A model generated the notes under the pieces. That model made no database searches. It saw nothing but the letters and a program-made list of their open reading frames with translations, and was not told the DNA's origin. Shown in pieces: positions 2,859 through 61,980 of a stretch of DNA of 64,000 nucleotides. The DNA comes from Mesostigma viride (lineage: Eukaryota > Streptophyta > Mesostigmatophyceae > Mesostigmatales > Mesostigmataceae), in assembly GCA_009746045.1 (NCBI GenBank), contig RPFO01000637.1, positions 42,501 through 106,500 of the forward strand, given 5' to 3'. The position numbers were made by a program, and so were the translations under genes. How positions within the stretch are numbered: position 1 is the first letter of the stretch; every line of letters begins with the position of its first letter.

Positions 2859-5800
2859 CTCCTGGATGGGCGCCGAGTGCTCCTTGGGGTTGACAAAGTG
2901 GGTCGCGCCAAAGAACTTGGCTGCACAGGTAAGTGTGGGAGCAGGGGGCCAGGGCAGAATCGTTAGCAGCCGGCAGGCTAGCTCACGCACATCGCTATCG
3001 CGGCTTTTGTCACAAGGCACGAACGAGTGCCTTATCAGCCTCATGGTGCGACGTAGCGTGGTAACCGCGTCAGAACCAACGTCGTCCACCGTGATGCCAC
3101 AACATAGCGGCGGGCTCAAGCTACCACCGTACACGCTCTCCAATTTCTTCCGCGGAAGAATTTCTTCCTTCTTTCTCTTTTTCTGGCCTGCGCTGGCTGG
3201 CTCATGGATGGAAGCGCTGCACAGGATCCCTCCGTGACGTGATGGGGGCTGCCCAACGCGGACAAACGGGATTGAAGAGCCCGAATGGGAAACTAACAAC
3301 AAAGGGGACGGAAGCCAATGGTTGTGCTCCATGCCCTTGCGGCCCGGGAGGATTGTGGTTGTGCTCCATGCCCTTGCTACCCGGGAGGATTGTGGTTGTG
3401 ATCCATGTCCATGCCCTTGCGGGAGAATGGAGGGCCCCGGCCTGGTCTCTGTATCACGCCATGGATGTGGCACAAGTCCGCAGGCGCACGCATGCATCTA
3501 CACAGGCGGTGATGAACCACACCATGCATGCCATCGAGGGCGACCGAAGAAGGGGAAGGGCCTAAACTCACAGCTGGGTGGCTTCCATGCCCCCCTTCCC
3601 CACCCCCCCCCCCCATGCCAGGCTGCACCCTGCCACGCACCCTTGTCCAACCTCCCCCCCCCCTATCTCAAATTTGCAACCCCCCCCCCGCCCCCATGCA
3701 AAACCCAGCTGCCACCCACCCATCTCAAACTTGTCCGGGTTGATGTCAACGGCGATGATCTGCTTGGCACCAGCAATTCGCGCGCCCTCGATGACCTGGG
3801 GCGGCCGGCAAGTGACGGCCATCAACAGGTTGCATGATTAAAGCCCGCAGTATACTGCCCGACAAGTCGCTGTACAGTAAGGGATGCCCGACAAGTGGCG
3901 CCCAACAATTGACTACAGCAGAGTGGCGCCCAACAAGCGGCGCCCAACAGATGATGCATGCCCATTGATGCCCGATAACGGGTGCTCCCCCCACAACACC
4001 CCCCAAGGCGCATGGTTGCATAAGAAGGGGGCGGTGCATGCACAAGGGAAGAAGCCCATGCCAGCAGTGAAGCCCTGCAAGCTTGCCAACTGGCACACCC
4101 TGCACAACTTGAACGTTGCAGGAAATGGCAACGTTGACGGGAGGGCGGACGGCCACAGTCTGCTGTTTGCGGTGGTGGCGGTGGGGCGATTTGCTGAATG
4201 CGAATACCCCGCCTGCCATTGGCCTGGGGCAGGATGGCCAAGTTGGCACCGATGCAACAAAACTCGAGGCCTTGAAAGGGGAAGTCGATGAACAAAGGGG
4301 AAGACGTCGTAGGGTTGGCAGCAACAAAGGAGCAGAGCTTGGATCGCACTGCCGGCGGGTGGCTGGGGCCAGGGGGAGCTCGTGGGTTGTGGGTGGCACA
4401 TACGCCGCCAGGCAACAGAGGGGCAGTACACAGGACACACCATACAGCAGTATATCTAGTGGAATTGTAGATAGCGGAATAAAATTGTTGCGGATAATGA
4501 AGAATGGAAGCGAGAGCGGCAACAGGACTCAAGTGCGAAACAGATAGAAACCTGACAAGTAAAGGTAGTAGGTAGGCATATATACTAGTCCCATACATAA
4601 GACAAACAGTAAAGGTAGTAGGTAGGCATACATACTATTACCATACATAAGACAAACAGTAAAGGTAGTAGGTAGGCATACATACTAGTGCCATACATTA
4701 GACAAACGTTATGTTCTGGTATTAAGAAATACAAACACGCACCACCCGGCCCACCGCGCCCAGCCTAAAGACGGCAACCGTGCTGCCTATCTGTTTAGGG
4801 TTTAGGGGTAAGGTACTAAGAAGTTATGTTCTGGTACTTAAGAATAGAAACACGCACCGCCAGGCCCACCGCGCCCAGCCCAAAGACGGCGACCGTGCTG
4901 CCCTTCTCAACTTTTGCGGTGTTGAAGACCGCGCCCAGGCCTGGGGGGTCGTGGGGCCCGTTGCAGGGGGTAGGAGCACGCTTGAAGGTGAGCGCATGGT
5001 GGGTTAAGTGAAGGGCGCGGGGGGCCAACAAGCAGGCGCGGGAGGATGGAGTGCAAGGAAGCCTGGGGGAAGAAACGAGAGCAACAAGAGGGGGAAAGAA
5101 AAGAGAGCAACAAGCGGGGGGCAGAAAAGAGAGCGACAAGGGGGGGGGGGGCAAGAGGAGGGAGGAAAGGTGAGGAAAAGGCGAGGAAAAGGCCAGGTGC
5201 ATGGTGGGCAAGTGGGCCGATACGAGGGGGGGCCGGGGCTGTGGTGTGCTGGTGGTTTAAGGGGATGGGACACCCCCGAATTTTTTGGCACGGAAAAATT
5301 CGCGGCACTGTCCGAGGTACCCTCCGTACCGTGAAAAGTGGGTGCACGGTGCGCGCACCCCTTGCGGAAGTGGCCATGGCGACTGCGTTTCGGCAAAACT
5401 ACCAGTATAGGGCGATCGAAATGCAAAACTATTACGCAAATCTTAAAGACGATTAGTTTATGATGTTGGCTTGTGGCGTAAAGTGGCTTGTTTACAAAAT
5501 CGTGGTAGTTTTTTTATGCCATCGGCGTGGGGGGAAATCCGAATTTTTGGGTCGCACAGAATGAAATGAAATTCATGATAACGCCAGTAAGTTCGTGATT
5601 TTGGAGGGAGTTCTGACCGTGAAGGAGGCATTAATATCAGTAGCATCGAATTCTAAACAAAACGCGTTCTTTTTGCTAAGTTTTGGCCATTTTCGGTGAG
5701 TAAACCATGCAGGCCTGCGCAGGGCGTGGCTGACCTTGCCATGGAAGAACGGCCGCTGTTGCGCGCCTGGGCGAGGGATTTACGAGGTCAAGGTATAGAT

Positions 5801-61700: not shown

Positions 61701-61980
61701 TTACCTGCAAGGTCGGCAGCGCGGCGTGGGGCCCCTTACCAGCTTAGGCAGCAGCGAAGCGTCGGCCCCCTTACCAGCTTGGGCAGCAGCGCGGCGGCGG
61801 TGCTGACGCCGAACGACGCGCAGGCGCCCAGCGAGACCAGAGTGTTCATGTTGGGCCGGTGCGCAGCAAAGCTCTTCCAGCCGTCCGCCAGGATGGACCG
61901 CCCTGGCCCCAGCAGGGTGATGACGGACAAGCCGGCGTGGAACGCGTTGGAGTGGAGGAAGGAGAGCGCCTTGCCCACGA
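49744..61980 (-). CDS. PAA1: PAA-type copper-transporting P1B-ATPase, 5' part outside window
   Basis: Eleven exons on the minus strand: 61775-61980, 60007-60225, 59361-59561, 57965-58063, 56550-56706, 54644-54949, 53259-53614, 52216-52332, 51511-51714, 50369-50449 and 49744-50013. Phases agree; 737 residues to the stop, with the N terminus beyond the right edge. Motifs in order: [30 protein letters not shown], actuator loop SLTGEPLPV, copper-site CPC in [15 protein letters not shown], phosphorylation site [51 protein letters not shown], and [16 protein letters not shown] with the MxxSS copper motif. Close to plant PAA1/PAA2 (HMA6/HMA8), which bring Cu(I) across the chloroplast envelope or into thylakoids for plastocyanin. 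It ends in a His/Gly/Asp-rich tail not usual in the family. Confidence 0.93.
51120..51500 (-). repeat. Echoes of a PAA exon donor (51511 border) with TATTCACCCCC repeats
   Basis: The exon ends DNLTQ before GTGGGT. Copies of the border (plus strand CCCACCTGCGTCAGGTTGTC) occur near 51127, 51174, 51234 and 51358, the last extending over 40 bases into exon-like sequence. Between them runs a roughly 12-bp CCCCCTATTCAC repeat that also starts inside the genuine donor flank. Confidence 0.9.
52020..52200 (-). other. Echoes of a PAA exon donor (52216 border)
   Basis: CGCCCACGTTCTGCGCCACA near 52027 and CGCTCGCATCCTGCGCCACA near 52126 resemble the real border CACCCACGTTCTGCGCCGG, each followed by AAACAGCCACC. 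They lie downstream in the same intron. Confidence 0.8.
52880..53105 (-). repeat. 22-bp minisatellite derived from a PAA exon donor flank
   Basis: About nine units of CCTGCCGCACCAACCCCCAA. The first reads CACCCACCTCCTGCCGCACC, close to the genuine border at 53259 (AACCCACCTCCTGCCTCAGC), so the array seems to have started from an exon-edge copy. Confidence 0.85.
54974..55366. repeat. (GGGTT)n array with a central (GGGTC)n block
   Basis: About 78 pentamers of TTGGG with one block of ten CGGGT units near 55169-55220. It starts about 25 bases upstream of a PAA exon acceptor (minus strand). Pentapeptide ORFs on both strands are artefacts. Confidence 0.97.
55367..55940. other. PAA intron segment: nothing recognised
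   Basis: Unique G-rich sequence, then an AT-rich stretch with a duplicated word CACGA(C)GATCATGATATTATATCACA (55820-55910, shown here only in part). No coding signal. Confidence 0.5.
55948..56246. repeat. 30-bp minisatellite, ten copies
   Basis: GATGAACAAACGCATGAGGC plus CAGATGTTGC, with C/T and A/G variants, in a PAA intron. The unit length, a multiple of three, produces a repetitive ORF in two strands. Confidence 0.96.
56430..56510 (-). other. Echoes of a PAA exon donor (56550 border)
   Basis: GCTCACCACGCTCCAGGAGC and CTTGACCACGCACCAGGAGC repeat the real border CTTGACCACGCACCTGGCGT at about 40-50-bp spacing. Confidence 0.75.
56916..57418. repeat. Composite (GT)n-(GA)n-(G)n-(GA)n microsatellite
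   Basis: About 500 bases of near-pure purine, mostly GA, interrupted by G runs (a 34-base run near 57190). It lies in a PAA intron. Arg/Glu and Ser/Leu ORFs are artefacts. Confidence 0.97.
57810..57960 (-). other. Echoes of a PAA exon donor (57965 border)
   Basis: CCTCATCAGCGA at the genuine exon end (RFADE) is echoed as CCTCATCAGCAAC or CCATCAGCAAAC at least four times among C-rich spacers further into the intron. Confidence 0.78.
58200..58375. repeat. 15/30-bp minisatellite
   Basis: GTGCGTGGACGAAC and GTGTGTGGATGAAC alternate for about eleven units in a PAA intron. Confidence 0.93.
58620..58760. repeat. C-rich CCCCCGCC / CCCTGCG low-complexity tract
   Basis: Almost pure CCG/CCC sequence with 7-bp CCCTGCG repeats at the end. 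No coding. Confidence 0.85.
58936..59045. repeat. 39-bp tandem repeat, three copies
   Basis: GGTGTGGCTGCGTCACCTGA at 58941, 58980 and 59019 in a PAA intron. Confidence 0.95.
60255..60810 (-). repeat. Echoes of a PAA exon acceptor (60225 border) and 18-bp and 88-bp repeats
   Basis: The exon start GWQSFFDEP with acceptor CAG is echoed near 60292-60345 (GCATGACTGGCTCATCGAAG, then GCTCGGCCAGCCCTG), more weakly at 60420-60440 and at 60786-60802. Between them lie about nine 18-bp units (CAACGGCCAAAGTGTGTT) and an 88-bp duplication (GTACGGCCTCTTGTCAGCTG). Confidence 0.82.
60870..61085. repeat. 60-bp tandem repeat, about 3.5 copies
   Basis: AGTGCCACGAGC(G/A)CTACTG and GGCAATAGT(A/G)TAGTGCC recur at 60-bp intervals in a PAA intron. 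Confidence 0.92.
61150..61395. repeat. 24-bp minisatellite, about ten copies
   Basis: CCCTGTCCCACGCACAGTAG plus AGTG with CG/TG variants in a PAA intron. Being a multiple of three, it yields a repetitive ORF in several frames. Confidence 0.96.
61505..61770 (-). repeat. 35-bp tandem array: about seven echoes of a PAA exon end with donor
   Basis: The genuine exon end (AALLPKL / GTAAGG, 61775) is followed in the intron by units whose GGGCAG word falls at 61535, 61571, 61606, 61641, 61676 and so on. Many keep TTACCAGCTTGGGCAGCAGC exactly, that is, a complete donor GTAAG after LLPKL. Confidence 0.95.

Follow-up and report, generated by a model that had tools for sequence, protein, structure and literature searches.

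Local, spaced copies of exon-intron junctions inside the introns of four plant- or alga-like genes, with an excess at donor sites

The window analyzed here, a stretch of 64,000 nucleotides (C1403:42501-106500) in an assembly of 440 Mb and 2243 contigs, carries four genes, which we call ADH, PTB, FKBP and PAA, and the introns of all four contain copies, or echoes, of their own exon-intron junctions. The exon pieces of ADH, when joined, give an end-to-end match to class III alcohol dehydrogenases, RRM and FKBP domains were found in the window genes with Pfam, and the names PTB and PAA (presumably a P-type metal ATPase) were assigned by us from familiar motifs; judged by their sequences, the four look like plant or alga genes. 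Exon borders were fixed by GT-AG sites, reading frame and protein continuity, which gave 33 introns (five in ADH, nine each in PTB and FKBP, ten in PAA) and 66 junctions. A second set came from other contigs, where kinesin motor-domain matches (129 in total) served as exon anchors: compact clusters of neighboring matches were picked before the DNA was viewed, at 14 loci, and of the 29 neighboring pairs examined we kept 23 introns with a score of at least 6.5, leaving out six pairs that offered no sure splice pair or between which an exon had been missed. The full set of 56 introns thus comprises 33 from the window and 23 that are anchored by kinesin homology.

We counted a junction as echoed if gapped BLAST of its edge against its own intron, on the plus strand, gave a match with at least 10 bases upstream and at least 6 bases downstream of the junction. 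By this measure 19 of the 66 window junctions (13 donors and 6 acceptors) and 7 of the 23 kinesin donors have a repeat unit that crosses the exon-intron boundary, as do the "mirages" discussed below; none of the 23 kinesin acceptors is echoed. Three of the 19 are doubtful: the acceptor of PTB intron 6, which lies in a C/A-rich repeat, PAA donor 57965, which is C/G-rich, and PAA donor 53259, whose match holds 11 exon bases. A search of both strands added PTB donor 20761 and FKBP acceptor 40492, neither of which has a match in the plus-strand count. The original prediction, made from the letters of the window alone, had put the number of echoed exon edges at fifteen or more, and these counts bear it out.

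How far above chance are these echoes? When a 40-base window laid over each junction was scored against introns (threshold 18), 12 of 33 donors and 5 of 33 acceptors in the analyzed stretch matched their own intron; over all 56 introns the figures were 19/56 for donors and 5/56 for acceptors, compared with 1/3080 and 0/3080, respectively, for matches to non-cognate introns. At the same threshold no donor window matched its own intron reversed (0/56) and no window from the interior of an exon gave a match (0/1194). Inverted matches were near zero (0.06% of 10578 windows), and in the two-strand search all matches were forward among the three best listed per junction. Because own-intron matches at donors are so much more frequent than matches elsewhere, we conclude that the junction echoes are far above chance.

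The clearer cases are ADH donors 8501 and 4858 and acceptor 9368; PTB donors 14886, 20761 and 26327; FKBP donors 39950, 41354, 42960 and 44224 and acceptors 40492, 42838 and 44027; and PAA donors 61775 and 51511 and acceptors 60225 and 51714. They are located as follows, with the basis of each assignment in brackets (TRF, Tandem Repeats Finder) and with X for the duplicated junction piece and S for the spacer between copies:

8501..8677, minus strand: ADH exon with at least four echoes of its donor edge, located after 8501 (gene model and gapped BLAST)
7928..8437, minus strand: four copies of ADH donor edge 8501, starting at 8437, 8321, 8187 and 7978 (gapped BLAST)
4708..4792, minus strand: copy of ADH donor edge 4858, with 50 exon and 35 intron bases and a 30-base spacer before it (BLAST and spacer test)
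9356..9922, minus strand: 90-bp array with the acceptor edge (13 exon bases) of the ADH exon starting at 9368 (TRF and BLAST)
14978..15218, plus strand: three decaying copies of PTB donor edge 14886, starting at 14978, 15084 and 15193 (BLAST and spacer test)
20768..20785, plus strand: 17-bp tandem copy at PTB donor 20761 (TRF and two-strand search)
26523..26566, plus strand: copy of PTB donor edge 26327, with 38 exon and 6 intron bases (BLAST and spacer test); a second, shorter copy lies near 26712
39995..40037, plus strand: copy of FKBP donor edge 39950 (BLAST and spacer test)
40350..40420, plus strand: upstream copy of FKBP acceptor edge 40492, its AG lost (two-strand search)
41432..41461, plus strand: copy of FKBP donor edge 41354 (BLAST and spacer test)
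42714..42768, plus strand: upstream copy of FKBP acceptor edge 42838 (BLAST)
42925..43424, plus strand: 113-bp array of FKBP donor 42960 in intron 8, of the form (X S)n X (TRF and BLAST); its final copy matches just 36 exon and 13 intron bases
43748..43961, plus strand: two upstream copies of FKBP acceptor edge 44027 (BLAST)
44340..44368, plus strand: copy of FKBP donor edge 44224 (BLAST)
61515..61796, minus strand: 35-bp array at PAA donor 61775 (TRF and BLAST)
60291..60350, minus strand: upstream copy of PAA acceptor edge 60225 (BLAST)
51098..51548, minus strand: repeated copies of PAA donor edge 51511 (TRF and BLAST)
51821..51872, minus strand: upstream copy of PAA acceptor edge 51714 (BLAST)

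Several of the edges that had been named as echoed are weak: PAA 57965, 53259 (window score 16), 52216 (score 15) and 56550 (where the array reaches only 4 exon bases) and, provided that the exon numbers of the original prediction equal ours, those of PTB exons 4, 6 and 7.

The copies are local, in direct orientation, and cross the junction. When only exon sequence was used as the query, 34 of 36 donor-side copies extended to the junction (within 8 bases), which is what local duplication requires. Copies usually carry 11-50 exon bases, with one case of 69, and mostly 6-37 intron bases. That duplications span splice borders is real, and holds on other contigs too, but the idea that they are short tandem ones fails for most of those tested: in 11 of the 14 cases no further spacer follows the second copy (z <1), so that direct repeats flank a non-repeated insert, as in staggered-break repair with filler, and the three remaining tests (z 2.9, 8.0 and 9.0) concern one weak alignment, one array and one AT-rich repeat. 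The founding structure therefore reads X-S-X' and not as a whole-period tandem repeat; with exon parts ~76-100% identical, plain tandem duplication of the whole period is ruled out for most tested copies. Array forms occur in FKBP intron 8, PAA introns 1 and 9, ADH intron 1 and at loci L014 and L016, whereas many other echoes are single spaced copies; the young arrays of FKBP intron 8, L014 and L016 read (XS)nX, and these three together with PAA intron 1 support the proposal that junction duplications seed arrays. The median spacing is 98 bases in 30 edge families and ~35 in 64 interior families (P=7e-6), and 18 of the 30 edge families are spaced by 70-134 bases, although the split into spaced and short families was made post hoc, on data already seen.

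An insert between direct repeats is also what a transposon or introner would leave, X being the target-site duplication and S the cargo. We regard such an origin as very improbable, given that X ranges over 21-85 bases and S over 20-189 bases among 17 cases, and that the spacers, searched in the window and the loci fetched, match only themselves, units of their own arrays and low-complexity repeats, and share no sequence with each other. One spacer, that of ADH intron 4 (4793-4822), contains a doublet of the plant-type telomere repeat (CCCTAAACCCTAAAC, gene strand), which is possibly break-repair filler. As a general pattern, telomere-type filler was rejected: a single TTTAGGG doublet occurs in the window and none in the other loci fetched.

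The copies also decay. It had been claimed that every copy keeps a GT or AG beside its exon piece, and this did not hold: the GT survives in 16 of the 26 donor copies that have diverged, and two of six acceptor copies retain their AG; selection keeping donor sites is thereby ruled out. These figures bear on whether the copies function as alternative or mutually exclusive exons, or as decoy donors under selection. Such a role is suggested by the inclusion of splice-site sequence, with GTGGGT preserved in some copies. It is nevertheless highly unlikely, because the exon piece is short and never a whole exon, GT and AG are so often lost, and mismatches in the exon part lack a third-position bias (39/36/39 by codon position over all gapped-BLAST copies, those within one array not being independent). 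Introns with donor echoes are longer, with a median of 1057 compared with 563 (P=0.002), in agreement with the expectation that echoes accompany longer introns.

A major question arising from these observations is "Are junctions special, or do repeats arise anywhere in these introns?" Per position, kinesin donors exceed the intron interior (7/23 vs. 10%, P=0.0003), as do window and kinesin donors pooled (P=0.0035), both at threshold 18, and this test is conservative for donors because interior positions count both copies and every array unit. The kinesin donors number seven by gapped BLAST and by window score alike, with differing members (L018 by window score only, L027 by gapped BLAST only). 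A simulation of random duplications gave donor/interior ratios of 0.54-0.72, compared with 1.3 observed in the window and 3.0 in the kinesins, but is a rough guide only, as it predicts exon-interior matches of 0.09-0.25 where none were observed. In a histogram of BLAST repeat clusters, the left edges of 13 of 49 families form a peak at 10-40 bases before the donor; because self-BLAST lost short periods, we replaced this analysis with an ungapped family test. There, 23 of 99 repeat families span a donor and 6 an acceptor, with 3.8 of each expected under uniform placement. Of the 22 kinesin families, 8 span a donor where 0.9 would be expected, and with seven ab initio introns added 23 donor and 7 acceptor families are counted among 102 (4.05 expected).

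The donor excess also has to withstand the possibility that exon-anchored copies are simply easier to see. With threefold visibility allowed to donors, the excess in the 99-family set has P=0.00025 at cut-off 16, and with twofold visibility the excess in the whole set with the ab initio introns is significant at cut-offs 16 to 22 (P <0.0001 to 0.027). Threefold visibility gives P 0.0009, 0.026, 0.10 and 0.33 at cut-offs 16, 18, 20 and 22 for the whole set with the ab initio introns, P 0.011, 0.033, 0.029 and 0.089 for the kinesins plus ab initio introns, and P <0.03 for the kinesins alone. Acceptor enrichment by the family test is not significant in any set, and echoed acceptors are fewer than echoed donors (Fisher P=0.002). 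Copies do lie on both sides of introns, as had been proposed, but only donors are enriched, and acceptors are about at chance. Across the 56 introns, starts are G-skewed (~+0.3), ends are C-skewed (-0.35) and the interior is close to 0; G-skew was tried and rejected as a marker of echo-bearing donors (0.32 vs. 0.28, P=0.76).

The rest of contig C1403 was surveyed with an ab initio gene finder, which was used for this contig check only and which, in leave-one-gene-out trials, recovered donors and acceptors equally well (25 of 33 each). A single one of 28 junctions is echoed, an acceptor with a 114-bp unit of 97% identity at locus L007 (C1403 ~113.2-113.6 kb). Its exon may be an upstream exon of PAA, in which case the gene would continue upstream, with an HMA-like frame farther on. 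Either the echo rate is uneven or some of the ab initio models are wrong.

Several other features were recorded in passing. PTB intron 8 is mostly filled by a 4.6-kb array of a 71-bp unit (21488-26135), whose repeat family reaches neither exon edge, and both ends of the window lie inside arrays (1-2348, 61-bp unit; 62267-64000, 23-bp unit). At 46200-48500 on the plus strand are two diverged copies of a reading frame that resembles a LINE (long interspersed nuclear element) reverse transcriptase by its motif, e.g., LIYADDITLIEK, and L011 and L013, places picked without regard to genes, hold retrotransposon-like frames that by eye are gag- and integrase-like. The kinesin exon matches of C622:17695-21288 and C2:6330541-6334132 have equal spacing and scores, which suggests that the pair represents a duplicated haplotype contig.

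What process, then, copies the junctions? The DNA as we read it presents local direct copies, X-S-X' and (XS)nX architectures, a donor enrichment and no special keeping of GT, and we consider it probable that these are mirage-type junction duplications produced by local break repair and followed by array growth, intron lengthening and copy decay. In this scheme a break or a pair of nicks near an exon edge would be repaired such that a piece X over the splice site ends up in two direct copies, often separated by a spacer S that is not itself repeated. Only changes that spare the exon edge would be tolerated and, as that edge must stay intact, the extra copy would come to sit in the intron. The direct repeats would then expand to (XS)nX arrays via unequal exchange or slippage, the intron would grow and the copies decay, while splicing presumably passes over them with the intact edge still beside the exon. 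The deficit of acceptors relative to donors would follow if an upstream copy of an acceptor is more harmful than a downstream copy of a donor, because the first AG after the branch point is usually the one used.

A number of points weigh against a donor preference in the window or against duplication by break repair. The first position-level profile of the window had no donor excess over the interior, and by the per-position test window donors are not significantly above it (12/33 vs. 0.279, P=0.145), so that the comparison of donors with non-junction positions favors the original prediction in the kinesin donors and repeat families but not, position by position, in the window alone. Under twofold visibility the family excess of the window alone loses significance at cut-off 20 (P 0.07) and at cut-off 22 (P 0.23). 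None of the 14 ab initio donors on the rest of C1403 is echoed. In addition, the source of the spacers was not identified in the DNA compared; the donor preference is unexplained, as random break repair alone does not predict it and the argument from acceptor harm does not account for a donor excess over the intron interior; and templated copying would yield the same X-S-X' structure.

Two alternatives draw on these points. Ordinary intronic minisatellites could arise anywhere with no junction preference, some would include an exon edge, and copies anchored in an exon would stay recognizable longer as the exon is conserved. The dense repeats of the window introns, the chance level of acceptors, the silent ab initio donors and the window statistics all fit this explanation, which we nonetheless find unlikely in light of the simulated ratios (rough as they are), the 23 donor families with their excess under threefold visibility at cut-off 16, and the wider spacing of edge families. 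Alternatively, the intron could break tens of bases past the donor and be filled with X copied from the exon edge, by template switching or in a polymerase-theta-like manner, such that S is ancestral and X' alone is new. Templated insertion fits both the X-S-X' architecture and the spacing of 70-134 bases in most edge families, but seems doubtful to us: templated insertions may be inverted too and inverted matches are near zero, the spacers contain less G (0.264) than the starts of echo-free introns (0.35-0.36), a weak hint that S is not ordinary intron start, and the donor preference is left equally unexplained. A further suggestion, which we put forward tentatively, is that the 5' splice site is a duplication hot spot, where a segment from ~25 exon bases to ~10 intron bases is copied to a place ~100 bases downstream, at a rate several times that of the intron interior or of acceptors; this would implicate transcription or splicing at donors in breakage or template switching, and would provide a steady route of intron growth.

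The process was thought to be undescribed, but it already has a name: tandem repeats over exon-intron boundaries were called "mirages" in amphioxus (PMC3087553; see also PMC3902484). Amphioxus mirages similarly cross the boundary on either side with units from tens of bases to ~160, and the globin authors likewise call the mechanism unclear and tie the repeats to intron evolution. The present case differs in its plant- or alga-like genome, and in the involvement of all four window genes and of kinesin loci, and it adds a measured donor excess and X-S-X' founders. In Daphnia, direct repeats within new introns were ascribed to staggered-break repair with insertion and proposed to lengthen introns (PMC4202315), all of which has parallels here, although the repeats common to the new intron and the adjacent exon are 4-12 bp there and tens of bases here. 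Tandem genomic duplication at AGGT (PMC3443670) also copies exon sequence with splice signals locally, but it makes introns, whereas here junctions already present are copied into existing introns. Rogers and Bendich (2025) read direct repeats of 4-30 bp (mean 11.4) at splice sites as footprints of intron insertion (PMC11782384); these too are located at intron-exon borders, but in our cases the second copy sits within the intron itself, at a distance of tens to hundreds of bases from the edge that it matches. No algal mirages turned up in the open PMC literature searched, and we do not claim that they are absent from print. The phenomenon itself is thus known, and what is new, as far as the literature searched, is its lineage and the counting of cases, together with the donor excess and the spaced founders, two features that amphioxus may share.

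If our conclusions are true, mirages, which have been little studied, are extended from lancelets to a distant lineage, and intron growth becomes countable, since junction copies have a known, conserved source. Because of that source each duplication would be datable, and its orientation, footprint and spacing could be read. Should the donor excess prove genome-wide, it would constitute a mutational signature of the exon-intron boundary.

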